Shown one piece after another: positions 12,875 to 51,788 of a DNA stretch of 64,000 nucleotides. The notes below the pieces were generated by a model. The model worked only from the letters and a program-made list of their open reading frames with translations, made no database searches and was not told the DNA's origin. The DNA lies in the NCBI GenBank assembly GCA_027310665.1, contig DAIDAJ010000009.1:1-64000 (forward strand), written 5' to 3'. Both the position numbers and the translations under genes were made by a program. The stretch is from Sideroxydans sp. (lineage in GTDB: Bacteria; Pseudomonadota; Gammaproteobacteria; Burkholderiales; Gallionellaceae). The stretch's first letter is position 1, and each line of letters starts with the position of its first letter.

Positions 12875-12916
12875 ATCTTCTACCCGCATGCCGATCCGTT
12901 CTGTGCGTTAGCACAC
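12875..12916 (-). promoter_or_regulatory. GTGCG-N4-CGCAC site and promoter facing the candidate small RNA
   Basis: Minus strand: GTGTG CTAA CGCAC at 12916-12903, followed by AGAACG; a -10-like GAAGAT begins 36 bp from the site start (12880-12875). The site also lies 74 bp upstream of the cheB/R-type gene on the plus strand, but its asymmetry matches the minus direction. Confidence 0.55.
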
Positions 12917-12989
12917 TTAAAGTCAAAAAATAGAATACGCCCGAATTCGGAGTAGCATAGGCCCGTTCCCGCATAAGCAAGGATATTCT

Positions 12990-15971
12990 GTGACAATCAG
13001 GAAAGTCGTGAGGCATCCAAAAACCCCTCCCGTCGAGGCCAAACCGGCACCCGTAAAAGCCAGAAAAATAGATACCGGCTTCCACGTCGTTGGCATCGGT
13101 GCCTCGGCGGGCGGGCTGGAAGCGTTTGAGCAGTTCTTTCGCAGCATTCCTCCGGACAGCGGCATGGCTTTCGTGCTGGTATCGCATCTTGACCCCGATC
13201 ACGACAGCATGCTTACCGAGATCTTGCAGCGCACCACCAGCATGCCAGTGGTCGAGGCTCAGGACCATGTGAAAGTAGAACCGAATTGCGTGTATGTGCT
13301 GCCGCCCAATCGCGAAATGGCCATCTTCCATCGCAATCTGCAGCTCAGCACACCGGAAATGCCGCGTGGACAACGCATGGTCATCGATTCCTTCCTGCGT
13401 TCGCTGGCGGAAGATCAGGGCGAAAAAGCCGTCGGCATCATCCTCTCGGGTACAGGTACCGATGGCACGCTGGGACTGCGCGCCATTCAAGGCGCAGGCG
13501 GTATCACGCTGGTGCAGGATCCAGCCACCGCGAAATACGACGGCATGCCGGTCAGCGCGATTCAGGCCGGTTACGCTTCCTATACATTGCCGGTGGAAAA
13601 AATGCCGGCGCAGTTGCTGAATAACAGGCTCAAGCTGTCTGCCGCCAACGAAGCAGCGCCTTCTCCGGCGGCTGAAAATAGCCTGAGCCGGATCCTGATG
13701 CTGTTGCGCTCAGGCACCGGAAACGACTTCTCGCTGTACAAGAAAAGTACCATAGGCCGCCGCATCGAGCGACGCATGTCGCAACACAACATCGACGACA
13801 TGGATACTTACGCGCGCTACCTCAAGGAACACCCGCCCGAAGTCCAGTCGCTGTTCAAGGAGCTGCTGATCAACGTCACCAGCTTCTTCCGCGACCCGGA
13901 GGCGTTCGTAGTGCTCAAGCAAAACATTCTGCCGGAACTGCTCAAAAACAAGCCGGAACACTATGTGTTCCGCGTCTGGGTGGCAGGTTGCGCCACCGGC
14001 GAAGAAGCCTATTCCATCGCCATACTTCTGCATGAACTCATGGGCGAGAATGAATTCGATTTCAAGACGCAGATCTACAGCACCGACCTCGACGACGATG
14101 CCATCGCCGTCGCGCGCGCCGGCGTCTATCCGCCCAACATCGCCCAGGATGTCACACCGGAAAGGCTGCGCCGCTTCTTCGTCAAGGAAGACGCGGGTTA
14201 CCGGGTAAAAAAGGAGATCCGCGAGATGGTGGTTTTCGCCACCCAGAACATCATCAAGGATCCTCCGTTCACCAAGCTGGACCTGCTCAGTTGCCGCAAT
14301 CTGATGATCTATCTGGAGCCGGAGCTGCAAAACCGTGTCATTCCCGCGTTTCACTACGCGTTGAAGCCCGGAGGCGTGCTGTTCCTCTCCCCCTCGGAAA
14401 GCATCGGCAACCATGTCGAACTTTTCACGGCGCTCAACCGAAAATGGAAGTTCTACCAGACCACGCCCTCGATCGCTTCCACCCGCACAGTGATGTCCAG
14501 CGGACTGTCCTGGACCAAAGATAACCCGACCAAAGGTCCTGATGACGTGACGACCCAGATCAAAGAAACCGACTTCGCCGAATTGACCCGGCGCGCACTG
14601 CTGCAGTCCTATGCCCCGGCTTCGGTGGTGATCAACACAAAAGGCGACATATTGTTCGTGCATGGCGACACCGGGAAATACCTGCGTCCCGCACCCGGCC
14701 AGGCCACGCTCAACGTGATCGAGATGGCGCGCGAGGGATTGCAGCTGGAATTGCGTACCGCCATTCAGGCGACGATCGACAAAGGAATCCCCACCCTGAA
14801 CAGGGAAGCCACATTTGGAAGCGACGGCAACATACTCAGAGTGAGCTTCAGCGTGCGGCTCCTGCCCTTTGCAGACATCGGCCGGGGATTACTGCTGGTG
14901 AGTTTCCAGGACGTGATGAACGCAAAGCCGGAAAAGGCAGCCGCTGAATCATCCGCAATGACGGGCAAGTCCGCACGCGGCAAGCGCGCTGCCGTATCGG
15001 CAGAGCAACTCCACATCGAAGAACTGGAACGCGACCTGACTTACACCAAAGAGAACCTGCATGCCACCATCGAGGAACAACAGGCCTCCAACGAGGAGCT
15101 CAAGTCCGCCAACGAGGAGATGCAGTCCACCAATGAAGAACTGCAGTCCACCAATGAAGAGCTGGAGACTTCCAAGGAAGAACTGCAATCCGTCAATGAA
15201 GAACTGGTGACGGTCAACGCCGAGCTGCAAAACAAGATCGAGCAACTGGCCGGCATGCAGAACGACATGAAGAACCTGCTCGACAATATCAACGTCGGCA
15301 CGGTATTCCTCAACGACACGTTGAATATCAAGCGCTTCACGCGCGAGGCGGTGCAGGTCTATCGCCTCGTTTCCTCGGACGTGGGCCGCCCGCTGGGCGA
15401 CATCAAATCGAACATCAAGGATGATGACCTGCTGGCCGATGCACAGGCTGTGCTCGATACACTGGTGCCGCGCGAACGCGAAGTGAGCACCGCGTCCGGT
15501 GCCTGGTATCAGGCACGCATCCAGCCCTACCGCACGCTGGACAACGTGATCGACGGCGTGGTGCTGACTTTTACCGACATCACCAAACGCATGCTGGCCG
15601 AAACCGCAACGAAGGACGCGCGCGAATTATCCGAAAGCATCGTGAACACGGTGCACGAACCGCTCATCGTGCTGGATGGCACATGCAGGATCATCCTGGC
15701 CAGCAGCTCGTTCTACGACAGCTTCAAGGTCTCGCCGCAAGACACGGTAGGCCGCCAACTGTACGAACTGGGCAACCGCCAGTGGGACATTCCCAAACTC
15801 AGGGAGCTGCTGGAATCCCTGTTGCCGGGCAACCAGGTAATCGAAGGCTTCGAAGTCGAGCATGACTTCCCGGTCATCGGGAAGCGCAAGATGCTGCTCA
15901 ACGCGCGGCGCATCACCGGCAAGGCGGAAGGAACTCCCTTGATCCTGCTGGCGATAGAAGAAGTCAAATAA
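12990..15971 (+). CDS. CheB-CheR fusion with coiled coil and two PAS domains
   Basis: 993-residue multidomain signalling protein. Residues ~30-215: CheB methylesterase domain with catalytic Ser in GIGASAGG (S39), His in SHLDPDH and Asp in GTGTDGTLG. Residues ~228-495: CheR methyltransferase (NVTSFFRDPEAF, SAM-binding VAGCATGEEAYS, DLLSCRNLMIYL). Residues ~672-758: a long coiled coil made of repeated NEEL/STNEEL heptads. Then two PAS domains, the last ending at the C terminus without a kinase domain. The GTG start at 12990 has AAGGA 6 bp upstream. No chemoreceptor or flagellar genes are in the window, so it likely acts in a non-chemotactic sensory pathway. The last PAS is closely similar to that of the next gene. 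Confidence 0.92.
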   Translation: MTIRKVVRHPKTPPVEAKPAPVKARKIDTGFHVVGIGASAGGLEAFEQFFRSIPPDSGMAFVLVSHLDPDHDSMLTEILQRTTSMPVVEAQDHVKVEPNCVYVLPPNREMAIFHRNLQLSTPEMPRGQRMVIDSFLRSLAEDQGEKAVGIILSGTGTDGTLGLRAIQGAGGITLVQDPATAKYDGMPVSAIQAGYASYTLPVEKMPAQLLNNRLKLSAANEAAPSPAAENSLSRILMLLRSGTGNDFSLYKKSTIGRRIERRMSQHNIDDMDTYARYLKEHPPEVQSLFKELLINVTSFFRDPEAFVVLKQNILPELLKNKPEHYVFRVWVAGCATGEEAYSIAILLHELMGENEFDFKTQIYSTDLDDDAIAVARAGVYPPNIAQDVTPERLRRFFVKEDAGYRVKKEIREMVVFATQNIIKDPPFTKLDLLSCRNLMIYLEPELQNRVIPAFHYALKPGGVLFLSPSESIGNHVELFTALNRKWKFYQTTPSIASTRTVMSSGLSWTKDNPTKGPDDVTTQIKETDFAELTRRALLQSYAPASVVINTKGDILFVHGDTGKYLRPAPGQATLNVIEMAREGLQLELRTAIQATIDKGIPTLNREATFGSDGNILRVSFSVRLLPFADIGRGLLLVSFQDVMNAKPEKAAAESSAMTGKSARGKRAAVSAEQLHIEELERDLTYTKENLHATIEEQQASNEELKSANEEMQSTNEELQSTNEELETSKEELQSVNEELVTVNAELQNKIEQLAGMQNDMKNLLDNINVGTVFLNDTLNIKRFTREAVQVYRLVSSDVGRPLGDIKSNIKDDDLLADAQAVLDTLVPREREVSTASGAWYQARIQPYRTLDNVIDGVVLTFTDITKRMLAETATKDARELSESIVNTVHEPLIVLDGTCRIILASSSFYDSFKVSPQDTVGRQLYELGNRQWDIPKLRELLESLLPGNQVIEGFEVEHDFPVIGKRKMLLNARRITGKAEGTPLILLAIEEVK

Positions 15972-16002
15972 ACAGGCAACAACCCGGCTTTAAGGACGCA
16001 CT

Positions 16003-16983
16003 ATGGACGACAAGACAAAAATACCGGATTCCCTGCGCTCAGAAGCCGAGTCGCGCATCGAGAAAGAGCAGATGGTGCTCGTGAATCCGCAACCGGGAGA
16101 GGAACTGCTGCATAAACTCCTGCATGAACTGCAAGTGCACCAGGTCGAGCTGCAAATGCAGAACGATGCCCTGCGCCAGGCAGAGATCGCCATGGAAGAG
16201 TCCCGCGACCGCTACGCGGATCTCTATGACTTCGCACCCATCGGCTATCTCACCCTCAGCCGAGAAGGCATGATCAACGAGATCAACCTCACAGCCGCCG
16301 ATATGCTGGGCGTGGTGCGAGGCAAACTGATCAAGCGCCGCTTTTCGCAATTTGTCGCCGAGGCAGACCGTGAGCGCTGGTATCTGCATTTTGGCAGCGT
16401 GCTGAAACACGACCAGAGACAGCGGTGCGAACTGGTGTTTCAGCGCGAGGATGGTTCGCACTTTAACGCCCAACTGGATTCGCTGAAGGTGCGCAATGCG
16501 CTTGGCACCGAGGAGCTTGAGCAGGCACCCGGCCTGCACGCCAAAGACGGAGCATTCTCGGTGCGCATCGCCGTTACCGACATCACCGAGCGGGTGCAGG
16601 CCGAAACCGCGGTTACGGAAGCACGCGAATTCGCCGAAAGTATCGTGGATACGGTGCGCGAGCCTCTTATCGTGCTGGATGACGCCCTCAAGGTCGTTTC
16701 CGTCAGCCGCTCGTTCTACCAGAAATTCCATGTCGTGCCGGAAGATACCGTGGGCCGCCAGATCTATGAATTGGGCAAGCACCAGTGGGATATTCCAAAA
16801 CTGAGGGAAATGCTGGAAACCATACTGCCGCACGACCGGGTTCTCGAAGACTTCGAAGTCGTGCATGATTTCCCGGGCATCGGAAAGCGCAGGATGCTGC
16901 TCAATGCCAGACGCCTCGTCTGCAGGACAGGCCGGACACAATTGATCCTGCTTGCGATGGAGGATGCCACTGAACGAGGGTAG
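16003..16983 (+). CDS. tandem PAS-domain protein without output domain
   Basis: 326 residues: a short helical N terminus (LLHKLLHELQVHQVELQMQN), PAS at ~66-195 (APIGYLTLSREGMINEINLTAADMLG) and a second PAS at ~210-320. The second PAS repeats motifs of the preceding protein's C terminus (ESIV..TV.EPLIVLD, DTVGRQ.YELG..QWDIPKLRE, GKR.MLLNARR), so the two arose by duplication. Relatives of this type normally continue into a histidine kinase; here the frame stops just after the PAS. It lies 31 bp after the CheB-CheR gene and is probably co-transcribed. Confidence 0.85.
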   Translation: MDDKTKIPDSLRSEAESRIEKEQMVLVNPQPGEELLHKLLHELQVHQVELQMQNDALRQAEIAMEESRDRYADLYDFAPIGYLTLSREGMINEINLTAADMLGVVRGKLIKRRFSQFVAEADRERWYLHFGSVLKHDQRQRCELVFQREDGSHFNAQLDSLKVRNALGTEELEQAPGLHAKDGAFSVRIAVTDITERVQAETAVTEAREFAESIVDTVREPLIVLDDALKVVSVSRSFYQKFHVVPEDTVGRQIYELGKHQWDIPKLREMLETILPHDRVLEDFEVVHDFPGIGKRRMLLNARRLVCRTGRTQLILLAMEDATERG

Positions 16984-17046
16984 GTTTCAGGCGAGTCAGG
17001 CCGGATGGAGGGGCGACGCACTGAACTCATCCCGCAACCGTTGTAC

Positions 17047-17088
17047 GTGCGGTAGCGCACATAACCGCACCTGATAGCATGCTATACA
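17047..17088 (+). promoter_or_regulatory. perfect GTGCG-N4-CGCAC site with promoter, upstream of the crp-like gene
   Basis: GTGCG GTAG CGCAC at 17047-17060; -10 TATACA at 17083-17088, giving a start near 17095 and a site centre at -41.5. Suggests autoregulation of the Crp-like gene. Confidence 0.7.
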
Positions 17089-17182: not shown

Positions 17183-17905
17183 ATGGTTGCCAAGATGCCC
17201 ACACAGCAAACACCCTGGCAGAACCATCTTCTCGCCTCGCTGCCGAAGGAGACATTCGAACGCATCGCCCCCCATCTGGAATTGGTCTCAATGCCGCTCG
17301 GCGAAGTCCTCTATGAATCCGGCGACCAGCTGCATCATGTCTATTTCCCGACGACCGCCATCGTGTCACTGCACTACGTCATGGAAAATGGCGCCTCTGC
17401 AGAAATCTCGGGCGTGGGCAATGAAGGTGTCGTCGGAATCTCCCTTTTCATGGGCGGCAATACCACGCCCAGCCGTGCCGCAGTGTGCACCGGCGGTTAT
17501 GGCTACCGCCTCAAAGCCCAGGTGATGATGGAAGAATTCAATCGGGCGGGACCGATGATGAAACTGATGCTGCGTTATACCCAGGCATTGATCACGCAAA
17601 TGTCGCAAACCGCAGTCTGCAACCGCCACCATTCGATGGAACAGCAAATGTGCCGCTGGCTATTGCAGACGCTGGACCGCTTGCCATCGCAGGAATTGAT
17701 CATGACACAGGAACTGATTGCCAGCATGCTCGGCGTCCGGCGCGAAGGGATCACGGAAACTGCCGGCGACCTGCAGCGCGCCGGTTTGATCAGTTACCGC
17801 CGCGGACACATCACCGTACTGAGCCGTGCAGGATTGGAAAAGCATTCATGTGAATGCTACGACGTGGTCAGGAAAGAGTTCCATCGTTTGCTGAAGGAGG
17901 CATAA
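17183..17905 (+). CDS. Crp/Fnr-family transcriptional regulator
   Basis: 240 residues. Residues ~15-140 form a cyclic-nucleotide-binding-like beta roll (LELVSMPLGEVLYESGDQLHHVYFP, GNEGVVGISLFMGG) but lack a clear cAMP-contact RxS motif and Fnr-type N-terminal cysteines, so the signal is unknown. A dimer helix and a helix-turn-helix follow (MTQELIASMLGVRREGITETAGDLQRAGLI). The recognition helix keeps the Arg-Glu pair of CRP R180/E181 but has Glu where CRP has R185, and the tail ends HSCECYDVVRKEFHRLL as in a distinct proteobacterial subfamily. ATG 17183 has GGAG 8 bp upstream. The next gene, a hybrid kinase, starts 4 bp after the stop. The strongest candidate reader of the GTGCG-N4-CGCAC sites. 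Confidence 0.92.
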   Translation: MVAKMPTQQTPWQNHLLASLPKETFERIAPHLELVSMPLGEVLYESGDQLHHVYFPTTAIVSLHYVMENGASAEISGVGNEGVVGISLFMGGNTTPSRAAVCTGGYGYRLKAQVMMEEFNRAGPMMKLMLRYTQALITQMSQTAVCNRHHSMEQQMCRWLLQTLDRLPSQELIMTQELIASMLGVRREGITETAGDLQRAGLISYRRGHITVLSRAGLEKHSCECYDVVRKEFHRLLKEA

Positions 17906-17909: not shown

Positions 17910-20483
17910 ATGGTTGAAGAAATACACATTCCCGATAGCCGCAACCCGTCTTCCGCTTCGGCGGAAGGCATGACAGAGATTCGAAGGCAGGAAACATTGC
18001 TCAAAACCGGTGCTCTGCAAAATGCGATCCTGAACAGTGCGAACTTTTCCAGCATCGCCACCGACGAAAAGGGCGTCATTCAGATATTCAATATCGGGGC
18101 CGAACGCATGCTGGGGTACAAGGCAGCCGATGTGCTGAACAAGATTACCCCCGCCGACATCTCCGATCCCCGGGAAGTGATCGCGCGCGCCAAGGCATTG
18201 AGCGCAGAGCTCGGAACGACGATCACACCCGGCTTCGAGGCACTGGTGTTCAAGGCCTCCCGCGGCATCGAGGATATTTACGAATTGACCTACATTCGCA
18301 AGGACGGCGCACGTCTTCCGGCCATCGTGTCGGTCACCGCCCTGCGCGATGCCCGGGATTTCATCATCGGATATCTGCTGATCGGCACCGACAACACTGC
18401 GCGCAAACAGATCGAAGCCGAGCGGCAACAGTTGCTCGACGTCCAGGAACAGACAAACAAGAAATTGCAGCAAACCAATCTCATCTTGCAGATCAGCGAA
18501 GAAAGACTCGCTGTGACGCTCAACTCCATAGGCGATGCGGTGATCACCACCGATGCGGAATCGCGAGTGACCTTGCTGAACCCGCTCGCCGAAAAACTCA
18601 CCGGCTGGACAAAAGCGGAGGCGCTTGGTCGCCCTGTGGACGAAATATTCCAGATCATCAACCAGGAAACCCGCCTGCCTTCCCCTATCCCGGTCAAGGA
18701 AACCCTGGCGCACGGCACCATCCAGGGCCTGGCCAACCACACCATTGTGATCGCACGCAACGGCAGCGAATGTGCCATTGCCGACAGTTGCGCACCGATA
18801 CGCGGCCGCGACGGCCATGTGATCGGAGCTGTGCTGGTGTTTCGCGACGTCACCGAGGAATATATCGTGCAGCAGACGTTGCGCGACAATGCTGCAATGG
18901 TCCAGACGGTACTCAACACCGTGGCGGACGGCATCATCACTTTCATTGCGGGCAGCGGCAAGATCGAGACCTCAAATCCTGCCGCCGAAAAGATGTTCGG
19001 CTACTCCGTTGAGGAGCTTGTCGGACGGGATTTCAACATGCTGATACCCGAGATCGACAGGAATCAGAGCAATAATTTCCGGGATCTTCAGGTTGGTGAT
19101 GATACACAGGACGCCTCCCCGGGTCATGAAGTCTTGGGTAAGCGCAAGGACGGCAGCACCTTTGCTATCGAGATAGCGCTTAGCGAGATGTGGTTGCGCG
19201 GCCAGCGCTACTTTACCTGCATCCTGCGCGACATCACCGAGCGCAACGAGATGGACAAAGTCATGCAGCAAAACAATATCGACCTGAAGAAAGCAAAATC
19301 TGCTGCGGAAAAGGCCAATCTCGCCAAATCGGATTTCCTCTCCAGGATGAGTCACGAATTGCGCACGCCGCTCAACGCCATTCTCGGCTTCTCTCAGTTG
19401 CTGGAAGCCGGCTCACCGTCGCTTACGGTCTCCCAGGCGGAAAGACTGCACCAGATCACCAAGGCCGGCTGGTATCTGCTGGAACTGATCAACGAGATAC
19501 TCGATCTTGCCGTGATCGAATCCGGCAAGCTATCGCTGTCGCGGGAACCGGTGTCACTGATCGACGTGATGCACGAGTGCCAATCCATGATCGAATCGCA
19601 GGCACAAAAGCACCACATCCGGCTGGAATTCCTCCCTTTCGATCACTCCTGGTTCGCCAATGCCGACCGAACCCGCGTCAAGCAGGTACTGATCAATCTC
19701 CTTTCCAACGCGATCAAATACAACAACCCGCATGGAACAGTCGTGGTGGAATGCAGCGCGATCGATCCGGAGCGTATACGTATCAGCATCAGGGACAGCG
19801 GCGCGGGCCTGTCGTCGAAGAAGATGGGACAGCTATTCCAGCCGTTCAATCGGCTCGGGCAGGAGAACGGTACCGAGGAAGGGACCGGCATGGGCCTGGT
19901 GGTTGCCAAGCAACTGGTCGAACTGATGGGCGGCACCATCGGCGTGGAAAGCTCCGTAGGCAAGGGCAGCCAATTCTGGATAGAACTGATACGGTGCATG
20001 CCGCCGAATTATGCCGCCAGAATCAGTACTCCCACCGAGAATGCGGCTCCGGCGCACAACGAGCTCAAGGCAGGCACACTGCTCTATGTGGAAGATAATC
20101 CGGCAAACTTGATGCTGGTCGAACACATCGTCGAGGGCCTTTCGCATGTGAACATGCTGAGTGCCCGGGACGGTCATCACGGCATCGCGCTTGCACGCAC
20201 CCGTCTCCCCGAAGTGATCCTGATGGATATCAACTTGCCGGACATCAGCGGCATCGAAGCACTCAAGATCTTGCGCAAGGATCCGGCAACAAAGCATATC
20301 CCCGTACTTGCCCTGAGTGCGAATGCGATGCAGCACGATATCGAGAGAGGACTGGAAGCCGGCTTTTTCCGTTATCTCACCAAGCCGATCAAGGTCAACG
20401 AGTTTTTGAATGCGCTGGACGATGCACTGGAATTTTCCAAAACAGAACAGGCATCGCAAATGAAGCAGGAGGAAATGAAATGA
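17910..20483 (+). CDS. hybrid sensor histidine kinase: three PAS, HisKA, HATPase, REC
   Basis: 857 residues, no membrane segments, so a cytosolic sensor. PAS domains at ~30-165, ~195-325 and ~330-445; dimerisation/phosphoacceptor helix with His in MSHELRTPLNAILG near residue 480; HATPase with N box LLSNAIKYN, DSGAGL and GTGMGLVVAKQL; C-terminal receiver at ~728-845 with the phospho-Asp in ILMDINLPD and Lys in TKPIK. GGAGG precedes ATG 17910. Follows the crp-like gene by 4 bp and overlaps the next gene by 4 bp (ATGA), so the three are an operon. Confidence 0.93.
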   Translation: MVEEIHIPDSRNPSSASAEGMTEIRRQETLLKTGALQNAILNSANFSSIATDEKGVIQIFNIGAERMLGYKAADVLNKITPADISDPREVIARAKALSAELGTTITPGFEALVFKASRGIEDIYELTYIRKDGARLPAIVSVTALRDARDFIIGYLLIGTDNTARKQIEAERQQLLDVQEQTNKKLQQTNLILQISEERLAVTLNSIGDAVITTDAESRVTLLNPLAEKLTGWTKAEALGRPVDEIFQIINQETRLPSPIPVKETLAHGTIQGLANHTIVIARNGSECAIADSCAPIRGRDGHVIGAVLVFRDVTEEYIVQQTLRDNAAMVQTVLNTVADGIITFIAGSGKIETSNPAAEKMFGYSVEELVGRDFNMLIPEIDRNQSNNFRDLQVGDDTQDASPGHEVLGKRKDGSTFAIEIALSEMWLRGQRYFTCILRDITERNEMDKVMQQNNIDLKKAKSAAEKANLAKSDFLSRMSHELRTPLNAILGFSQLLEAGSPSLTVSQAERLHQITKAGWYLLELINEILDLAVIESGKLSLSREPVSLIDVMHECQSMIESQAQKHHIRLEFLPFDHSWFANADRTRVKQVLINLLSNAIKYNNPHGTVVVECSAIDPERIRISIRDSGAGLSSKKMGQLFQPFNRLGQENGTEEGTGMGLVVAKQLVELMGGTIGVESSVGKGSQFWIELIRCMPPNYAARISTPTENAAPAHNELKAGTLLYVEDNPANLMLVEHIVEGLSHVNMLSARDGHHGIALARTRLPEVILMDINLPDISGIEALKILRKDPATKHIPVLALSANAMQHDIERGLEAGFFRYLTKPIKVNEFLNALDDALEFSKTEQASQMKQEEMK

Positions 20484-21310
20484 TAAATGAACAGGAAATC
20501 CGTAGCGCCCGCATTCTGATCGTGGATGATCAGCCCTCAAATGTACTGTTGCTGGAAGAAATGCTGAGAGCCGTCGGGTATATCGGGATCGAGTCGACCA
20601 CCGATCCATTCGCAGTCTGCGGACTGCATCGCGAGAACAATTACGATCTGATCCTGCTCGATCTGCAGATGCCCGGCATGGATGGCTTCCAGGTGATGCA
20701 AGGCCTCAAGGAGATCGAATCGGACGGCTACCTCCCGGTACTTGTGATTACTGCCCAACCGGATCACAAACTGCGCGCACTCGCCGCGGGCGCCAAGGAT
20801 TTCGTTGCCAAGCCATTCGACCTGGTCGAAGTACAGACGCGTATCCATAACATGCTGGAAGTGCGCCTGCTGTACAAAAAACTGGCACAGCAAAACCGTG
20901 AGCTGGAACAGACGGTGCAGGAGCGCACAGCCGAACTGCGCAAAAGCGAAGCGCGCTATCAACGCCTGACCGAACTGTCATCCGACTGGTATTGGGAACA
21001 GGACGAGCACGGGCAGTTCACCAAAATCTTCGGCCCGGTGTTTGAAATGCTCGGGATCCGGGTCGACGACGAGCTCGGCCACACCCGAGACGATCACGGC
21101 GGAACCTGGAACGAGAACGAGCGGGAAATGCTGGAAGCAAATCTGGCCACCCGGAAACCGTTCCTGGATTTTGTCTACAGCCGGACCAAACCGGATGGCA
21201 CAAGGCAATTTCTGATGGTGAGCGGAGAGCCGATGTTCAATCCCTCCGGACGCTTCATCGGCTACCGCGGCATCGGCAAGGACGTGACCGGAACGATCTC
21301 CCCTGCCTGA
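20480..21310 (+). CDS. response regulator, REC-PAS, without catalytic output domain
   Basis: 276 residues. Receiver at ~10-125 with the acceptor Asp in LILLDLQMPGMDG and KPFDL; a coiled-coil linker (LAQQNRELEQTVQERTAELRKSEARYQRL); PAS at ~160-270 ending GYRGIGKDVTG. Its receiver and linker resemble the REC-HD-GYP protein at 34336-35400, which suggests a common origin with exchange of the output module. Translationally coupled to the hybrid kinase, its likely phosphodonor partner. Confidence 0.9.
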   Translation: MINEQEIRSARILIVDDQPSNVLLLEEMLRAVGYIGIESTTDPFAVCGLHRENNYDLILLDLQMPGMDGFQVMQGLKEIESDGYLPVLVITAQPDHKLRALAAGAKDFVAKPFDLVEVQTRIHNMLEVRLLYKKLAQQNRELEQTVQERTAELRKSEARYQRLTELSSDWYWEQDEHGQFTKIFGPVFEMLGIRVDDELGHTRDDHGGTWNENEREMLEANLATRKPFLDFVYSRTKPDGTRQFLMVSGEPMFNPSGRFIGYRGIGKDVTGTISPA

Positions 21311-43680: not shown

Positions 43681-43702
43681 ATGCGGAAACTGCCGGTCAA
43701 TA

Positions 43703-43727: not shown

Positions 43728-43743
43728 CCAGATGCAACGTGAC

Positions 43744-45216: not shown

Positions 45217-45401
45217 TTTATTTTCCTCGTTATCTGATTCAAACAGCATCGGTTCAGCCTATCGTCATGGCCGGTGCGTATCCGCATCCGCTCAGCAATG
45301 TTCTCCGGGGCCAAGCTTCTCGGCTCTGCGAACCTCGGCCCGGCCTACGGCAACTCAAAATCAAATCGGCCGAGGTAAAGACACAAGTTGCACACGTGGC
45401 G

Positions 45402-45443
45402 GTTATCCCCCATTAGTGGGAAACGCTCTGTGCACTTGCACAC
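45402..45443 (-). promoter_or_regulatory. GTGCG-type site with promoter, upstream of 43744-45216
   Basis: Minus strand: GTGTG CAAG TGCAC at 45443-45430, then AGAGCG; -10-like GATAAC at 45407-45402, 36 bp from the site start. The gap 45217-45691 holds this and the divergent site at 45579; no gene seen. Confidence 0.55.
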
Positions 45444-45578
45444 ATAGGAAAATCTGTCGGTACAGCCCCGGGCAGGCAGAATCGAGTTGTGTTTGAAGAG
45501 AGCTCACACACGGCAGTCTGGTTGAATCTGTGCCAGATCATCTCGTTGCCTGTATATGAAGGGCATTTTTCGCGTCAT

Positions 45579-45620
45579 GAGCGCTAGCGCACAGAGCGTA
45601 CTCCGGGTAGTTGCGAGAAT
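45579..45620 (+). promoter_or_regulatory. GTGCG-type site with promoter, upstream of the AI-2E family permease
   Basis: GAGCG CTAG CGCAC at 45579-45592, then AGAGCG; -10-like GAGAAT at 45615-45620, 36 bp from the site start, about 65 bp before the gene. Confidence 0.55.
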
Positions 45621-45691
45621 CGCGGCAAGCTGAAATCCCGAACCAATCAGTTCCCGCAGGAACTATCAGAGATTAAATCAAGGTGTGCAGC

Positions 45692-46915
45692 ATGCAGGGT
45701 GATCGACCAAACAAACACGATGGAAGGGGGATCGAGGAGATTCCCGTTGTCACAATTGACGACATGAACCTCAAAAACGAGACCTCGCACGATACCCCGA
45801 CTGAGGATTCCGCGGCAGTCAGGATCCGTTCGTCCCGTTACCTGCGCATGAATGTGTCGCTCGGCGTATTGGCGATCATTGCCTTCGTTGCTGCACTTTA
45901 TCTCGCACGGGATTTCATCGTGCCTTTGCTGATCGGCATCCTGGCAAGCTACACGCTGACCCCGCTGGTAAACTGGCTCAAGGCCTGTTATGTGCCGCGC
46001 CCACTGGGAGCCGCCCTGGTGCTTGGCGTTATTCTCGGAGGACTGTTCTGGATCGCATACTCCTTGCACGACGATGCCGTGGCGATGATCAAGAACCTGC
46101 CCGAGACGACGCGCAGGATGCGACAGAACCTGAGCGATACGCGCGGTGGACCGACCGCCTTGCAAAACATGCGGGAAGCCGCAAAACAGCTTGAAGGCGC
46201 TGCCGCCGATGCCGGTGTGAAGCAAGGTGCGCTTATCGTCGTCGCACCATTACCCAAAGAGCCGTCGTCCTGGCTGAGCGACTATCTGCTTGCATTGTCC
46301 ACGCCGATGATCACGGTGATCGGACAATCGGTCGTCGTCCTGATACTCACCTATTTTCTGCTCGCTGCCGGCGCACATTTCCGGCGTAAGCTGATTGGCC
46401 TGGTCGGTCCGTCAATTGCAAAACAAAAGGAGGCCGTGCGCATACTCGACGAGATCAATGTGCAGATACAGCTTTACCTGCTGACGATGCTGGTTTCGAA
46501 TGTCCTGATCGGCGTCGGTACATGGCTTGCTTTCGGAGCGATGGGAATGGAGCAGGCGGGAATATGGGGTGTCATCTCGGGCGTGCTGTCGTTCGTCCCC
46601 TATCTGGGCCCGGCCTCGGTCGCCGGCGCCAGTGGAATCGCGGCATTCTTGCAGTTCGGCTCGCCGCTCCATGCGCTTGCAGTCACGGGTGTATCGCTAC
46701 TGGTGACAGGTATCGTCGGATTGATATTCATGCCATGGCTGCAAAGCAAGTTCGCCCACGTAAACATGGCCGTGATTTTCATCGCATTGCTGTTTTTCGG
46801 CTGGTTATGGGGAATTTGGGGCGTGCTGCTTGGTGCCCCGCTGGTCGCGATCATCAAAGTAATCTGCGACCGGGTCGATTCGCTCAGGCCTATCGGTGCG
46901 CTGCTTGGCCGTTAG
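45692..46915 (+). CDS. AI-2E family transporter (PerM-like membrane protein)
   Basis: 407 residues with about eight membrane segments in the PerM/AI-2E pattern: two near the N terminus (VSLGVLAIIAFVAALYLA, FIVPLLIGILASYTLTPLVNWL), a soluble helical insertion (~130-200), then paired C-terminal helices with GVLSFVPYLGP and the closing WGIWGVLLGAPLVAIIKVICD. The family contains exporters of autoinducer-2, Na+/H+ antiporters and unknowns, so substrate is open. ATG 45692 has AAGG upstream; a GTG nine bases earlier is possible. The N-terminal 50 residues are polar and variable. Confidence 0.9.
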   Translation: MQGDRPNKHDGRGIEEIPVVTIDDMNLKNETSHDTPTEDSAAVRIRSSRYLRMNVSLGVLAIIAFVAALYLARDFIVPLLIGILASYTLTPLVNWLKACYVPRPLGAALVLGVILGGLFWIAYSLHDDAVAMIKNLPETTRRMRQNLSDTRGGPTALQNMREAAKQLEGAAADAGVKQGALIVVAPLPKEPSSWLSDYLLALSTPMITVIGQSVVVLILTYFLLAAGAHFRRKLIGLVGPSIAKQKEAVRILDEINVQIQLYLLTMLVSNVLIGVGTWLAFGAMGMEQAGIWGVISGVLSFVPYLGPASVAGASGIAAFLQFGSPLHALAVTGVSLLVTGIVGLIFMPWLQSKFAHVNMAVIFIALLFFGWLWGIWGVLLGAPLVAIIKVICDRVDSLRPIGALLGR

Positions 46916-46983
46916 CAGTCCTGGTCGCAATAGCCTCCGGCGATCACCTGGCATCAATTCGCTCTGCCCTGTTCGGCATCAAT

Positions 46984-47025
46984 GTGGGCTAACGCACAGA
47001 GCGCATATCCGAATAGGTGTCCAAT
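46984..47025 (+). promoter_or_regulatory. GTGCG-type site with promoter, upstream of the lipoprotein/OmpA/stress block
   Basis: GTGGG CTAA CGCAC at 46984-46997, then AGAGCG; -10-like TCCAAT at 47020-47025, 36 bp from the site start. The leader to the first gene is about 148 nt. Confidence 0.55.
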
Positions 47026-47179
47026 CATGCCGAATACGTGTGGATGCCGCTTATAGCGATTTTTTTCCCGCAGACATCGGGGTTGCACATGCAAGCTTCA
47101 AGGGAATCAGTTAATCGTCGCAAGCACAGGAAATCGTTTGTAACGGTTGAGTTCGGCGTTAAATTCATGAATGGGGAAT

Positions 47180-47575
47180 ATGATGAAAAATCTTGGCAAC
47201 TCCAGATCGTATCAAGCTCTACGCGGGATCGGCGTGTCACTGGCAGCCGTGATTCTGATATCGGCCTGCGCCAGCGTCCCTCCGCCCATCGAGCAGATGG
47301 CAGTCTCAAAGGCCGCGCTTAACGATGCGAATAGTGCCGGAGCAAATGAATTCGCACCGGTACAACTCAAGTCGGCGATGGACAAAATGCAGGGAGCAGA
47401 GCAGGCAATGGCAGCAAAGGATTATCCGCTGGCTAAACGGTTGGCTGAAGAAGCGGAAGTCGACGCAAAGCTTGCCGGACTGACTGCCCGCTCTGTCAAG
47501 GCGCAGAAAGCCGCCGAAGCGATACAGGAAGACAGTCGCGTGTTGCGCAATGAGATAGACCGTAAAGCCAAGTAA
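47180..47575 (+). CDS. DUF4398-type lipoprotein
   Basis: 131 residues. Signal peptide with lipobox ISAC near residue 30 (VSLAAVILISACAS), then a helical DUF4398 domain: PIEQMAVSKAALNDANSAGANEFAP, SAMDKMQGAEQAMAAKDYPLAKRLAEEAEVDAKLA. The next gene has the same kind of domain fused to OmpA, 18 bp downstream, so the two probably work together at the outer membrane/peptidoglycan interface. Two adjacent ATG codons (47180, 47183) follow a GGGGA site. Confidence 0.87.
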   Translation: MMKNLGNSRSYQALRGIGVSLAAVILISACASVPPPIEQMAVSKAALNDANSAGANEFAPVQLKSAMDKMQGAEQAMAAKDYPLAKRLAEEAEVDAKLAGLTARSVKAQKAAEAIQEDSRVLRNEIDRKAK

Positions 47576-47593
47576 CTCTCAATGGAGTCCATC

Positions 47594-48484
47594 ATGAAAA
47601 AAATCCAATACTTCCCTATGGCGCTGATCGCTTTGGCGCTCCTGGCCGGCTGCAACACTGTCAGGACCAATCCTGCTCTCGCCGGTGCACACAGCAACTA
47701 CAACAATGCAAGCGCCAACCCGGAAGTCACGAATCTTGCAGCGCTTGAATTGAAGGAAGCCAGTGACTCTCTGTACAAAGCGGATACCGCACTGAGCGAC
47801 GGTGACGACACTGCCTCCGTCAACCACTTGGCCTATCTGGCCAATCAGCGCGTGGCGATCGCACAGGAGACAGCCAAACGAAAATCGGCTGAATTAGCGG
47901 TCGCCGACGCCACTGCACGCCGCGATCAGGTTCGCCTGGATGCGAGGACAGCTGAAGCCGATGCGGCAAAAAAGCAGGTATCGAGCATGCAAAAGACCGC
48001 TGACCAACAAAATGAGGAATTGGCGGCTGCCAGCGCCAATTCGGCAAGCGACCAAGCGCTGATCGCCAAACAGGCACTGGAGCTCAAGGCATTGAATGCC
48101 AAGCAGACGAACCGTGGTCTGGTAATCACGCTTGGCGATGTGCTGTTCGGTATCAACAAGGCGCAATTGAAATCCGGCGGAACGCGCAATGTGCAGAAAC
48201 TGGCCGATTTCCTGAAGGAATACCCGCAGCACAAGGTGCTGATCGAAGGCTACACCGACAGTACCGGCAGCGACAGTCTGAACCAGGATCTCTCAGAACG
48301 CCGCGCAGAGGCAGTACGCAGAGCGCTGGTCGATGGCGCGGGCATCAGCGGTGATCGCGTCTCGACTCGCGGTTATGGCAAGGAGTTTCCCGTCGCAAGC
48401 AACGACACAGCTACCGGCCGTCAACTGAATCGGCGAGTCGAAGTCATCATTTCGGACGGGAAGGGCAATTTCGCTCCGCGTTAA
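47594..48484 (+). CDS. lipoprotein with DUF4398 helical part and OmpA C-terminal domain
   Basis: 296 residues. Lipobox LLAGC near 20; helical region ~25-165 rich in Ala/Glu/Lys (DUF4398-like, then a coiled coil AEADAAKKQVSSMQKTADQQNE); OmpA peptidoglycan-binding domain ~175-290 with GDVLFGINKAQLK, LIEGYTDSTGSDSLNQDLSERRAEAV and GRQLNRRVEV. Should tether outer membrane to peptidoglycan. GGAG precedes ATG 47594. Second gene of the block 47180-50552. Confidence 0.92.
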   Translation: MKKIQYFPMALIALALLAGCNTVRTNPALAGAHSNYNNASANPEVTNLAALELKEASDSLYKADTALSDGDDTASVNHLAYLANQRVAIAQETAKRKSAELAVADATARRDQVRLDARTAEADAAKKQVSSMQKTADQQNEELAAASANSASDQALIAKQALELKALNAKQTNRGLVITLGDVLFGINKAQLKSGGTRNVQKLADFLKEYPQHKVLIEGYTDSTGSDSLNQDLSERRAEAVRRALVDGAGISGDRVSTRGYGKEFPVASNDTATGRQLNRRVEVIISDGKGNFAPR

Positions 48485-48520
48485 TCATCTCTTCCAGCAA
48501 TTCAGACAAGGAGAATCCAA

Positions 48521-48679
48521 ATGTCATTGGGAATGATTTTATTGATCATCGTTGTGTTGATGCTGATCGGCGTAATCCCGGCCTGGCCGCACAGCAGGGC
48601 ATGGGGTTACGGACCCAGCGGTGGGCTCGGACTGGTTCTGATCATTTTGCTGATTTTGCTGCTGTTGGGACGATTGTGA
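48521..48679 (+). CDS. DUF3309 family small membrane protein
   Basis: 52 residues. N-terminal membrane helix MILLIIVVLMLIGVIP, the conserved AWPHSRAWGYGPSGGLG centre, and a second helix VLIILLILLLLGRL, matching the DUF3309 pattern along its full length. AAGGAG lies 8 bp before ATG 48521. Found with stress-response genes in many proteobacteria; function unknown. Confidence 0.9.
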   Translation: MSLGMILLIIVVLMLIGVIPAWPHSRAWGYGPSGGLGLVLIILLILLLLGRL

Positions 48680-48785
48680 GGTGCTCTCAATGATTCATGG
48701 CACGCCTGCCGCAGGTTGATCGCGCCGATATTTTTGAAAATTGCATATGGGTTAAATTGCCCAATCATCTGTTAGGAGATCGAAC

Positions 48786-49097
48786 ATGAAACAACTCAAA
48801 TATTTTGCCGCACTATTCATGACCGTCGCTTTGCTGTTCTCTTTCGGGTGCGCTTCCACGGCAACCAAGGAAAGTACCGGCGAATATTTCGATGACAGTG
48901 TAATCACCACCAAGGTCAAGGATGCCCTGTTCAACGAATCTACTTTGAAATCATCCGAGATCAACGTTGAAACTTACAAGGGCATCGTTCAATTGAGCGG
49001 CTTTGTCAGTTCACAGGCGAACATGGACAAAGCGGTTGAAATCGCAACCGGTGTCAAAGGAGTGCAGTCCGTCAAGAACAACATGCAGAAAAAATGA
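48786..49097 (+). CDS. BON-domain lipoprotein
   Basis: 103 residues. Lipobox FSFGC near 22, followed by a single BON domain (~37-103): SVITTKVKDALFNESTLKSSEINVETYKG in pieces, IVQLSGFVSSQANMDKAVEIATGVKGVQSVKNN. Resembles OsmY-type osmotic/envelope-stress proteins and the BON lipoprotein at 37824-38246. AGGAG precedes ATG 48786. Confidence 0.92.
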   Translation: MKQLKYFAALFMTVALLFSFGCASTATKESTGEYFDDSVITTKVKDALFNESTLKSSEINVETYKGIVQLSGFVSSQANMDKAVEIATGVKGVQSVKNNMQKK

Positions 49098-49168
49098 ACA
49101 CCGTATGACAAATATCCCGATGGGCACTTGATCCATCAAACACGAAATTTCATCCAAGGAGTAAAGCA

Positions 49169-49495
49169 ATGACAACGAAAACCATGCACACAGACATATC
49201 AATCCCGAAGGACAAGCTTATGGAAGACTTGCGCCTGGTCGTGGCGGACGCGGAGGAACTGTTGCGCGCGACTGCCAGCCAGGCGGGCGAAGGGGCGACA
49301 GCTGCACGTGCGCGTATCCAGAAAAGCCTGCAAACCGTGAAGGAGCAATTGGTCGATGCAGAGGACGCCGTGATCCGGCGCACCAAAGAGGCGGCGAAGG
49401 TCACTGACCAATATGTCCACGACAATCCCTGGAAAGCGATCGGCATCTCCGCCTGTGTGGGGGCCATCATCGGGATGTTGATCGCACGGCGCTAG
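49169..49495 (+). CDS. DUF883 family protein (YqjD/ElaB-like)
   Basis: 108 residues: helical N-terminal part (DLRLVVADAEELLRATASQAGEG in pieces) and a C-terminal membrane anchor WKAIGISACVGAIIGMLIARR with the YVHDNPW motif of the family. E. coli YqjD and ElaB are inner-membrane proteins that bind ribosomes in stationary phase. AAGGAG precedes ATG 49169. First gene of the yqjD-yqjE-yqjK-like trio. Confidence 0.93.
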   Translation: MTTKTMHTDISIPKDKLMEDLRLVVADAEELLRATASQAGEGATAARARIQKSLQTVKEQLVDAEDAVIRRTKEAAKVTDQYVHDNPWKAIGISACVGAIIGMLIARR

Positions 49496-49497
49496 AT

Positions 49498-49875
49498 ATG
49501 CCGCAATCTACCGGACTCATGGAGTCGTTAAAGAGGATGACGAGCACTTTGCTCGCCATCATCCAAACGCGGATTGAACTGCTGGGCAATGAGATCGAGG
49601 AGGAGCGGCTGCGCGTCAGGCAAATGCTGTTCTATGGTAGCGTCGCCCTGTTTTTCCTTGGCATGACGATCATGCTGCTGACGGTATTTGTCGTGGTGGT
49701 GTTCTGGGATAGCTACCGCCTGCAGGTATTGGGTGGTCTGACTTTGCTGTTCCTGGTTGCCGGTCTGTCATTCTGGTACGCCTTGCGCAGTATCGCACGC
49801 GCAAGGCCCAGACTGTTTTCCACGACCCTGTCTGAATTGTCCGACGATATTGACCGCCTTAACCCACGCCCATGA
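49498..49875 (+). CDS. YqjE-like membrane protein (phage holin superfamily 3_6)
   Basis: 125 residues: N-terminal amphipathic helix (LLAIIQTRIELLGNEIEEERLRVRQM), two membrane helices (~45-70 and ~78-97), polar tail. The family is named for holins but chromosomal YqjE proteins follow YqjD, as here (2 bp gap); no phage gene is near. Role unknown, probably membrane stress. Confidence 0.9.
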   Translation: MPQSTGLMESLKRMTSTLLAIIQTRIELLGNEIEEERLRVRQMLFYGSVALFFLGMTIMLLTVFVVVVFWDSYRLQVLGGLTLLFLVAGLSFWYALRSIARARPRLFSTTLSELSDDIDRLNPRP

Positions 49876-50213
49876 ACAAGCACCTTGCTCGTCTTGCGCA
49901 ACGCCGCCTTGAGCTTCTTGAACAAATTGAAGCCCAGCGCATGGCCATGGCCGAGAGCTCCCAGGATTTGCATAAGCCATTGGCAGTAGTCGATGCCGGC
50001 TTGCATGCGGTTCGCCTGATCTACGCCCATCCCGTATTGTTTGCAGGCGGTATGACGGCACTGCTGACATGGCGCCGTCACGGTATCGTCGGCCTTGCAA
50101 AGAACGGATGGCGCTTGTTGTATCTCTATCCTTCTGCCATTTTCTTCGGCCTGAAATACCTTGGCTCTGCTCTTGGGTCAAAATCCGGAGATTCCGATAC
50201 TGACGTTCAGTAA
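49872..50213 (+). CDS. YqjK-like protein
   Basis: 113 residues. Basic N-terminal helix with RLAQRRLELLEQIEAQR, a central hydrophobic stretch and WRRHGIVGLAKNGWRLLYLYP, typical of YqjK-like proteins that follow YqjD and YqjE. The ATG overlaps the yqjE-like stop by 4 bp. Function unknown. Confidence 0.85.
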   Translation: MNKHLARLAQRRLELLEQIEAQRMAMAESSQDLHKPLAVVDAGLHAVRLIYAHPVLFAGGMTALLTWRRHGIVGLAKNGWRLLYLYPSAIFFGLKYLGSALGSKSGDSDTDVQ

Positions 50214-50264
50214 GCATTGGGGTCGGCAATCTTTCAATGCTCACGCAATCCACAGGAGTATGAA

Positions 50265-50552
50265 ATGTCCAACATCGACTATCACGAGTCAAAACATGAA
50301 CTGTCCGAAGCTGTGTGCAACATGCACAAGGCCCTTGTTTCCCTGACGGAAGAACTGGAAGCCATCGACTGGTACAACCAGCGCGCCGATGTGTGCAAGG
50401 ACAAGGAGCTCAAAGCGATCCTGATACACAACCGGGACGAGGAGAAAGAACATGCGTCCATGTTGCTGGAATGGATCCGGCGCAACGACCCCAAGTTCTC
50501 AAGCGAATTGAAGGACTGCTTGTTCACCAAAAAAAACATTGCAAAGCTGTAA
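50265..50552 (+). CDS. encapsulated-ferritin-like (EncFtn) protein
   Basis: 95 residues matching the EncFtn family: MHKALVSLTEELEAIDWYNQRAD supplies the first metal-binding Glu and the Trp-Tyr pair, and HNRDEEKEHASMLLEWIRRNDP supplies the second Glu and His (ExxH). Two-helix EncFtn subunits assemble into rings with ferroxidase centres and are usually loaded into encapsulin shells through a C-terminal targeting tail. Here the protein ends soon after LFTKKNIAKL and no shell gene is adjacent. AGGAG precedes ATG 50265. It sits 51 bp after the yqjK-like gene. Confidence 0.85.
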   Translation: MSNIDYHESKHELSEAVCNMHKALVSLTEELEAIDWYNQRADVCKDKELKAILIHNRDEEKEHASMLLEWIRRNDPKFSSELKDCLFTKKNIAKL

Positions 50553-50683
50553 TTTCAGGACTCACCACGACAAAAGGCCGTCTTCTGCAAATAGCAAGCT
50601 TTGACTGTGCCGCATGAAGCTACTACCAGCCACTGCTTGTTGCAACGGTCTTTATCATTTCTTCACGCCCGGCACTGCATCGC

Positions 50684-51517
50684 TTACGGAACTGTAATCG
50701 TATTCTGATTAAGCGTCACGGCACTTTGCGCCAGCAGTCTGCCGTTCATTTTTGCACCCGCCTGCAGATTGATGGCAGTTTGCGACAATATCACCCCCTG
50801 CATGAGCGCAGTCGTTCCGATATCCACTGCGCCGGCGATCTGCCAGAACACATTCCTGGGTAACGCACCTCCTGCCAGGGTGACTTGCGTCGCGGCAGAC
50901 TGTGTCAGGCCTTGCGCAAACTGGAACACCCACACGTCCGTTGCCGTGCCGCTGAGTGTGATGTTCGTTGGTATGGTAACGCCGTTGGCACATGTATAGA
51001 CGCCCGGAGCAATGGTCAACCCGCTCATAATGCCGCCCCCCGGACACGGTCCTCCCGCTTTTCCGGCAGCCGCGGTATAAGCAGTCTGCATGTCGCCAAC
51101 TGCCGTCGTGAGATCAACAGACGTCGTCCCTCCCACATTGTCAGCTGCATATAGTCTTCCGGGTACTGCAACCTGGGTGGATGAAAAAGAGGTATCCGTG
51201 GGCTCGGATATCAGTGACCATCCGGTCAAAAAGGTCCTGGCGGCGGGACTCAGCCCGACATTTCCGGTCACTACCGAACCTGGAACGGTTGAAACACCTG
51301 TTTTTGCCAGAATCACGTAATTTGCGGCCGTTCCGAGAGGAACGCAACTCGCGCCCGCACATACCGCCCCCACCGGACCGGTACTTGCAGGACCGACAGC
51401 CGCGGCCGACACACCCGCTCCACCACTTCCGTCCATCCAGCATCCGGTTGTCAAAGCAGTCATCAGCAACGTCATTGTTAACATCAGTGGTTTGAAAATG
51501 ATTTCAGATTTGTACAT
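50684..51517 (-). CDS. DUF3494 ice-binding-like lipoprotein without stalk
   Basis: 277 residues. Lipobox ALTTGC near 26, short Gly/Ala linker, then DUF3494 filling the rest: ANYVILAKTGVSTVPGSVVTGNVGLSP, GVYTCANGVTIP, TDVWVFQFAQGL, NVFWQIAGAVDIG and LLAQSAVTL. Same C-terminal domain as the three larger lipoproteins at 39.8-45.2 kb but with no Ig-like or DUF5018 part. AGGAG precedes ATG 51517. Own GTGCG-type promoter. Confidence 0.88.
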   Translation of the reverse strand: MYKSEIIFKPLMLTMTLLMTALTTGCWMDGSGGAGVSAAAVGPASTGPVGAVCAGASCVPLGTAANYVILAKTGVSTVPGSVVTGNVGLSPAARTFLTGWSLISEPTDTSFSSTQVAVPGRLYAADNVGGTTSVDLTTAVGDMQTAYTAAAGKAGGPCPGGGIMSGLTIAPGVYTCANGVTIPTNITLSGTATDVWVFQFAQGLTQSAATQVTLAGGALPRNVFWQIAGAVDIGTTALMQGVILSQTAINLQAGAKMNGRLLAQSAVTLNQNTITVP

Positions 51518-51617
51518 GTTTTTTCTCCTGAAAGGCGAAACCTCGAAATGAAATCCAACACGTCAAATGCGATGCTTTGCAGTGGCGTTTCCTGGCGCAA
51601 CTCGCCGAGACAAAACT

Positions 51618-51659
51618 CTTATCCGCCTTTACCGGAAGACGCTCTGTTCGTTAACGCTC
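51618..51659 (-). promoter_or_regulatory. GTGCG-type site with promoter, upstream of the short DUF3494 lipoprotein
   Basis: Minus strand: GAGCG TTAA CGAAC at 51659-51646, then AGAGCG (two mismatches); -10-like GATAAG at 51623-51618, 36 bp from the site start. Confidence 0.5.
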
Positions 51660-51748
51660 ATATGGCCGGCTAGCGCATTCCGGATCGAATCCGTTGGCAT
51701 TTATCCCGGTATCGGGCCGTCTCACATTCCGGTCTTCGTCCTGTCACT

Positions 51749-51788
51749 GTATGCAAACGCACATACAACAATTCATGCTTGCTATAGC
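51749..51788 (+). promoter_or_regulatory. weak GTGCG-type site upstream of the outer-membrane protein gene
   Basis: GTATG CAAA CGCAC at 51749-51762; TATAGC at 51783-51788 begins 34 bp from the site start instead of 36. Least certain of the thirteen. Confidence 0.4.

Follow-up and report, generated by a model that had tools for sequence, protein, structure and literature searches.

Predicted operators of a Crp-like activator in a Sideroxydans genome

The closest described relatives of the system reported here are CRP of Escherichia coli, FNR/ANR, and NtcA of cyanobacteria, which are all known to act in class II activation. In this class, the operator of a CRP/FNR activator is centred at -41.5 relative to the transcription start. 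FNR holds an Fe-S cluster by means of N-terminal cysteines. We analysed 64,000 nucleotides of a Sideroxydans sp. genome of the family Gallionellaceae (contig DAIDAJ010000009.1, positions 1 to 64,000; hereafter the window), in which 13 palindromes of the form GTGCG-N4-CGCAC are found, one of them before a gene for a Crp-like protein (17183-17905). With a probability of roughly 0.83, these palindromes serve as operators for an activator of the Crp/Fnr superfamily, for which the product of 17183-17905 is the likeliest candidate. The regulon would be of a known kind, a class II activator regulon, with a new operator and a new regulator clade.

Operator sites and an independent matrix

The 13 palindromes had been listed in a sequence-only reading of the window, and a re-check of the sequence confirmed all of them at the same coordinates. 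Those at 17047, 21346 and 31545 are perfect 5+5 palindromes, as had been claimed, and the other ten carry one or two mismatches, none of them the three that had been allowed for. With up to two mismatches, the bare pattern is not enriched in the window (72 observed against 65 +/- 7 expected), and counting it is uninformative as a test of the sites. Because it stands at chance level, a stricter test by means of an independent matrix was needed.

Relatives of the crp-like gene were collected from 59 loci of named genomes, including Gallionella, Sideroxydans, Sideroxyarcus, Methylobacter, Methylovulum, Crenothrix and Cupriavidus. Cupriavidus and the near-identical strain L016 were excluded from the matrix (21 loci dropped, 38 left), and L016 was also left out of the conservation counts. 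A site matching TGTGCG-N4-CGCACA at 10 or more of 12 positions lies within 400 bp upstream of the crp-like gene at 18 of the 38 loci, compared with 0 of 38 for the reversed pattern and 16 of 760 shuffled sequences. Across genomes, too, the 16-bp palindromes co-occur with this gene, whose product is their presumed binder. A symmetric 24-bp matrix was built from 21 sites in these 18 loci, all from other genomes and picked by their likeness to TGTGCG-N4-CGCACA. Its consensus is TNTGTGCG-NTAN-CGCACANA, with the variants TGTACG and TGTTCG, and it is in these additional positions that the signal resides. C is found in 36 of the 42 half-sites at the position where CRP sites have A.

The 13 top matches of the matrix in the window are exactly the 13 palindromes, with scores from 25.3 to 9.8. 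The 14th, a repeat arm at 1133, scores 6.9 and falls below all of them. Eleven matches reach at least 12 where 0.35 are expected per random 64 kb, and 12 reach at least 10 where 0.7 are expected, the expectations being taken from 20 first-order Markov sequences. We take the 13 palindromes to be real regulatory sites, and by computation they are not the work of chance. Gene models were made with a simple codon-usage caller that was written for this work, trained on this genome and applied to others too; by these models, 12 of the sites fall between genes, and the remaining one (31544) overlaps with the stop codon of the open reading frame (ORF) 29969-31552. The earlier statement that 0-12 and 53-64 kb are free of sites is right as regards the operator; the bare pattern does occur in the 0-12 kb part (1134, 1176). 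The operators are as follows, with offsets counted from the operator centre.

12902-12917, plus strand: before the CheB-CheR-PAS gene 12990-15971; score 24.4; -10 candidates at offsets 21 or 43
17046-17061, plus strand: before the crp-like gene; score 25.3; -10 candidate TATACA at 17083-17088
21345-21360, plus strand: before the response-regulator gene 21467-22699; score 9.8; -10 TAGGAT at 21382-21387
23040-23055, plus strand: before a PAS-GGDEF gene (ORF 22966-24513, start probably 23143); score 19.2; -10 TACGAT at 23077-23082
24588-24603, plus strand: before the CHASE3-PAS hybrid kinase gene 24797-29374; score 13.4; -10 TAAGCT at 24625-24630
31544-31559, plus strand: before the PAS hybrid kinase gene 31745-34312; score 11.7; -10 TATGAT at 31581-31586
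41555-41570, minus strand: before the ice-binding-like gene 39850-41346 (ORF open to 41703); score 15.6; weak -10 GATAAA at 41528-41533
43666-43681, minus strand: before the ice-binding-like gene 41732-43450; score 15.8; weak -10 GAGAGT at 43639-43644
45429-45444, minus strand: before the ice-binding-like gene 43744-45249; score 15.9; weak -10 GATAAC at 45402-45407
45578-45593, plus strand: before the AI-2E family transporter gene 45692-46915; score 18.5; -10 GAGAAT at 45615-45620
46983-46998, plus strand: before the DUF4398/OmpA/BON/DUF883 block; score 22.0; weak -10 TCCAAT at 47020-47025
51645-51660, minus strand: assigned by us to the ice-binding-like gene 50684-51517; score 21.4; weak -10 GATAAG at 51618-51623
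51748-51763, plus strand: before the gene 51913-52905 (no Pfam family); score 14.8; -10 candidate TAGCCT at 51785-51790

Promoter geometry and conservation

In order to locate promoter elements, 105 oriented sites were aligned on their centres; sites of relatives with genes on both sides were omitted, and 51645 was entered in plus orientation. Beyond the operator, one clear conserved block was found, T-A-T-n-A-T at offsets 29-34. With a generic -10 matrix, no other of the 88 offsets scores as high as 29, at which z is 11.8 (all 105 sites), 11.4 (the 92 sites outside the window) and 6.5 (the 13 within it); the hexamer is also visible in the alignment without this matrix. An A at 30 together with an A at 33 or a T at 34 occurs in 72 of the 105 sites, whereas the same combination at other offsets averages 12.4 sites and never exceeds 23. 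Among offsets 27-31, the best -10 lies at exactly 29 in 12 of the 13 window sites, 51645 being taken here towards the minus-strand gene. A -10 element at this fixed offset places the operator centre near -41.5, as in class II promoters, the centre being deduced from the -10 element and not from mapped starts. Two -10 subclasses are seen among the 72 sites, 39 with T at -12 and 16 with G at -12, often as GGAT.

The genes behind the operators of the window include the regulator and the following proposed targets.

12990-16983, plus strand: CheB-CheR-PAS protein and PAS protein, targets (Pfam)
17183-17905, plus strand: Crp-like regulator of 240 aa, the proposed reader of the operator, with HTH_Crp_2 and weak cNMP_binding (Pfam)
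17910-21310, plus strand: PAS-HisKA-HATPase-receiver hybrid kinase and receiver-PAS protein (Pfam)
39850-45249, minus strand: three ice-binding-like (DUF3494) proteins, targets (Pfam PF11999)
45692-46915, plus strand: AI-2E family transporter, target (Pfam PF01594)
47171-50552, plus strand: target block of DUF4398, DUF4398-OmpA, the small ORF 48533-48679, BON, DUF883, Phage_holin_3_6, YqjK and EncFtn-like proteins (Pfam)
50684-51517, minus strand: fourth ice-binding-like protein, target (Pfam PF11999)

The hybrid kinase and receiver-PAS genes lie directly behind crp and probably share its operon. Besides crp, the sequence-only reading had counted four further sensor/regulator units; with the Pfam assignments there are five with a site (12903, 21346, 23041, 24589 and 31545). 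We take DUF883 of the target block to be of the YqjD type and Phage_holin_3_6 to be of the YqjE type.

Sites recur in relatives, and they do so outside genes. In the crp neighbourhoods of 37 other loci, 74 intergenic sites scoring at least 12 (in 63 kb) were found against 2 coding sites (in 318 kb), a count that omits bases 5600-6000 of each locus (the bases immediately before crp in loci where the gene begins at 6001) and includes 4 matrix seeds among the 74. The Cupriavidus neighbourhoods have 7 intergenic sites (32 kb) and 1 coding site (205 kb). Homologues of window genes were examined for a site within 420 bp upstream, in loci fetched by crp homology only. Sites were found before BON (7/7), DUF4398 (2/2), CheB-CheR (5/8), ice-binding-like (2/3), AI-2E (1/2), DUF883 (1/2) and hybrid kinase genes (8/30), as well as before 21 of 39 close crp genes and 6 of 7 distant ones (<60% identity); 18 of the 21 close orthologues with a site are expected by construction, being matrix seeds. 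No site was found upstream of response regulator-PAS (RR-PAS; 0/18), PAS (0/6), OmpA (0/2), holin-like (0/2) or YqjK (0/1) homologues, and RR-PAS, PAS and OmpA are operon-internal genes in this comparison. The in-gene control gave 0 in all rows. Neither of the findings that the sequence-only reading had named as speaking against it, equal density of the motif in coding sequence and missing conservation upstream of orthologues, was thus made.

Genes downstream of sites were scanned with Pfam (137 of 158, with 21 crp orthologues left out), and among the first 25 of 108 families the counts were PAS 17, HTH_Crp_2 11, BON 9, Ice_binding 5, CheB 5, CheR 5, CsbD 5, DUF4398 5 and DUF5670 3. Loci L115-L184 had been fetched for carrying the motif, which biases both these counts and the 105-site alignment. 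Site-less genes of the crp neighbourhoods served as control (129 of 140 drawn genes scanned; 11 were dropped, some of them crp homologues or very short) and gave PAS_9 26, Response_reg 21, PAS 18, HTH_Crp_2 4 and BON 3; the 25 families listed for them include neither CsbD nor Ice_binding. PAS genes are equally frequent where no site is present and were rejected as a mark of the regulon. CheB-CheR, PAS, hybrid kinase and RR-PAS genes surround crp, fully or partly, in many Gallionellaceae and Methylobacter loci, and in none of 20 Cupriavidus loci save for one weak kinase match. A single 12.7-kb stretch of one locus (L046) holds ice-binding-like, DUF4398, OmpA, DUF883 and holin-like genes, two crp-like genes, and CheB-CheR, PAS, kinase and RR-PAS genes.

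Elsewhere in its own genome, the operator is sparse, and the window is a dense island of the regulon. In 400 kb sampled as 20 stretches of 20 kb, hand-picked from longer contigs and not random, 9 matches of at least 8 were found, 8 of them in coding sequence, which is the chance expectation for a coding share of 86.5%. The looser pattern TGTNCGNTANCGNACA, with two mismatches, occurs 182 times in this genome, and the reversed control 112 times. Among the 19 places with a single mismatch outside the window, 6 are intergenic and score at least 8, 4 are coding and score at least 8, and 9 score below 8, so that most such places are due to chance. On contig C25, one of the six intergenic sites precedes a BON-like gene, behind which comes a DUF3309-like gene, and a second site is close by. 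The others precede a second crp-like gene with 46% identity to the 17183-17905 protein (C53:92388) and an outer-membrane-barrel-like gene (C108), or lie near small membrane/glycine-zipper-like genes (C102), PAS-like genes (C45) and a gene of different character (C75). With the exception of the crp-like gene, these labels come from reading the translations and not from library matches.

Three further features of the window were observed. Four ice-binding-like (DUF3494) genes lie inside 12 kb (39850-51517). The DUF883/YqjK block ends with an EncFtn-like protein of the encapsulated-ferritin type (50217-50552; Pfam 135 bits), which reaches 122 bits with TIGR04535, where the cut-off is 125. Directly before the PAS-GGDEF operator, a 56-bp unit is repeated five times in tandem (22754-23039; 96% matches).

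The Crp-like protein as reader of the operator

The earlier proposal of a regulon with a CRP-spaced operator and the 17183-17905 protein as its reader is supported, with binding by this protein as the presumed step. The -41.5 geometry, the REP-like decoys described below, the second crp-like gene with a site of its own and the members beyond the window are additions to that reading. The protein matches PF13545 with 52.9 bits (cut-off 27) and PF00027 with 28.0 bits (cut-off 27.5), and no helix-turn-helix family other than that of the crp gene was reported in a Pfam scan of 29 window proteins. Its AlphaFold2 model (mean predicted local distance difference test score, pLDDT, 90.6) has the CRP/FNR fold as modelled, the best Foldseek match being MtbCRP (4a2u; E 3.3e-13, TM 0.74), followed by GlxR, FNR and NtcA. 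The stretch G184-V-R-R-E188 in the recognition region is common to all 37 aligned sequences (the window protein and 36 homologues). In the same 37 sequences of the Crp-like clade, C146, H150, C157, C223 and C225 (CECY motif) are invariant; these residues possibly form a metal or redox sensor.

Across 150 Gallionellaceae genomes, TGTGCGNTANCGCACA with at most one mismatch occurs 463 times and its reversed control 74 times. Where a close orthologue of the 17183-17905 protein is present (61 genomes; E < 1e-85, a cut-off set after the table was seen), the mean is 6.33 copies (control 0.52). The mean is 0.69 (control 0.55) in the 71 genomes without a homologue below 1e-40 (p = 9e-19 against the orthologue group), and 1.56 (control 0.17) in the 18 with weaker or truncated homologues, which do not differ from those with none (p = 0.21). 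The contrast is also found within genera. In genus g12, the 27 genomes with the orthologue have a mean of 5.81 and the 39 with none 0.79 (p = 1.7e-9 when the orthologue group is compared with the none and weak groups together); in genus g1, the means are 4.55 (11 genomes with the orthologue), 0.14 (14 with none) and 0.44 (9 weak-only; p = 1.6e-5). Ten further genomes were counted with TGTRCGNTANCGYACA against its control: Methylobacter tundripaludum SV96 (21 vs 0), M. psychrophilus (11 vs 3), Methylovulum psychrotolerans (7 vs 0), Crenothrix polyspora (6 vs 1), a Gallionella metagenome-assembled genome (MAG; 7 vs 2), a Nitrosomonadales MAG (4 vs 2), three Cupriavidus (3 vs 3, 6 vs 0 and 1 vs 1) and Paramagnetospirillum kuznetsovii (0 vs 0). 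Judging by the Cupriavidus and Paramagnetospirillum counts, the operator is probably not common to every homologue of the Crp-like protein.

We infer that the binder is the 17183-17905 protein rather than a paralogue, and that it activates rather than represses. A dimer of the protein would bind TNTGTGCG-NTAN-CGCACANA, with the half-site spacing of CRP and centred at -41.5, and would recruit RNA polymerase in the class II mode to promoters that have a -10 element and a -35 region covered by the operator. A signal, presumably stress or growth state, may reach the system through the PAS proteins or be sensed directly by the Crp-like protein, and would yield more of the active dimer. This dimer would raise its own operon and a set of PAS-type sensor/regulator genes, and would switch on envelope and stress genes, namely the DUF4398-OmpA-BON-DUF883-YqjK-EncFtn block, the ice-binding-like proteins and the AI-2E transporter.

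Several observations weigh against this proposal. Same-clade paralogues occur in this genome and in others, and the cut-off that defines a close orthologue was chosen post hoc. At most two motif copies are present in 12 of the 61 orthologue genomes, and at least three in 6 of the 71 orthologue-less ones. No site was found in the 400 bp upstream of crp in 20 of the 38 regions outside Cupriavidus, and none of the 11 Cupriavidus regions examined reaches 10/12; since the SV96 gene is among the 20, self-activation is not universal. As to the promoters, the best -10 of the whole 12-99 range is at 29 in only five window sites, with one more tied, the hexamer is weak at 41555, 43666, 45429, 46983 and 51645, and the CheB-CheR site at 12902 departs from the -41.5 rule.

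An unlikely alternative is that a paralogous Crp-like protein, such as that of C53:92388, is the real or joint reader, and that the 17183-17905 protein is mainly a target. The C53:92388 protein shares the recognition stretch GVRRE, its own gene is preceded by a site, and distant paralogues in relatives often have sites (the 6 of 7 below 60% identity). However, the weak-only genomes of genus g1 have few copies compared with those that have a close orthologue, and of the 28 copies in all 18 genomes with weak or truncated homologues, 15 come from a single genome (G122), in which the homologue is a fragment with 79% identity. That the sites serve a repressor from the same protein family, or have a dual purpose, is less probable still and would be surprising: an operator that covers the -35 region may equally keep polymerase out, but a -10 element at a fixed offset over many promoters is what polymerase contact at -41.5 demands, whereas a repressor needs no fixed spacing.

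The exact GTGCG-N4-CGCAC pattern occurs at 36 places genome-wide, 22 of them in pairs or clusters by hand count. A genome-scattered element resembling repetitive extragenic palindromes (REPs) was recognised. It consists of copies of the perfect inverted repeats GTGCGCTTGCGCAC / GTGCGCAAGCGCAC, or of variants of them, that stand as pairs at a distance of 23-42 bp. It was found at 1134-1189 of the window, where the perfect palindromes 1134 and 1176 are both arms of one inverted repeat, and on contigs C34, C39, C52, C54, C75 and C90. The exact-pattern count is dominated by these pairs and was rejected as a measure of the regulon. That the 13 palindromes are themselves repeats of the REP or bacterial interspersed mosaic element (BIME) type, or RNA hairpins with no operator role, is suggested by this prevalence of paired repeats and is scarcely credible, for the 13 are unpaired, differ in cores and flanks, outscore the better repeat arm (9.8-25.3 vs 6.9), precede genes at a fixed distance from a -10 element and vary in copy number with the crp-like gene, the paired element being separate.

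Comparison with known systems

The target set overlaps in genes with the RpoS regulon of enterobacteria. Proteins of the BON/OsmY type belong to this sigma-S overlap. The yqjCDEK operon of E. coli is sigma-S-dependent (PMC10746276), and a CsbD protein is reported to be tightly sigma-S-controlled in Salmonella (PMC5437024). An RpoS model found no match in any of the 150 Gallionellaceae genomes; it matched 54 genomes in a set of 120 from the order, which includes 4 Gallionellaceae. We tentatively suggest, with the odds somewhat against it, that the Crp-like class II activator runs a general stress or stationary-phase programme in Gallionellaceae, where no RpoS was recognised. This programme would comprise the YqjD-E-K, CsbD and BON types together with ice-binding-like proteins and PAS sensors, the regulator may sense through C146, H150, C157, C223 and C225 and not through cAMP, and methane-oxidising gammaproteobacteria would share the circuit. 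A replacement of RpoS in Gallionellaceae is an attractive hypothesis that the data do not require, because M. tundripaludum has both RpoS and the motif, and RpoS is often missing in the order outside the family.

In the literature searched, outside which most subscription journals lie, there was no report of the operator, the regulon or the regulator clade; PMC8510549 and PMC6446978 treat other CRP/FNR regulons. The analysis supplies a predicted operator, a probable mode of action and a target set for a little-studied Crp-like clade of iron- and methane-oxidising bacteria. They offer a testable answer to how envelope and stress genes are controlled in iron-oxidising Gallionellaceae without a recognised RpoS, and the enrichment of the operator in the cultured M. 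tundripaludum SV96 makes the regulon testable there. It would account for the joint control of four ice-binding-like genes and many PAS sensors.

Among described regulators, E. coli CRP shares with this system the superfamily fold, the TGT-N10-ACA spacing over 16 bp and the centre at -41.5. It differs in its targets and in its half-site, TGTGA compared with TGTGCG, so that the consensus TGTGCG-N4-CGCACA is not the cAMP-CRP operator TGTGA-N6-TCACA, and invariant Cys/His residues mark the 37 homologues here. FNR/ANR have the same fold and class II activation, and FNR of A. fischeri is among the best matches of known structure, but cysteines are absent from the first 100 residues of the window protein, and the operator is not TTGAT-N4-ATCAA. 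NtcA is likewise a class II activator and one of the top sequence matches for which a structure has been solved; its operator, GTA-N8-TAC, has no CG step, and the NCBIfam NtcA model gives the window protein 22.6 bits, where the cut-off is 244.95. With the RpoS regulon, the likeness is one of genes and not of mechanism, since control here would be exerted by an operator-binding activator and not by a sigma factor.

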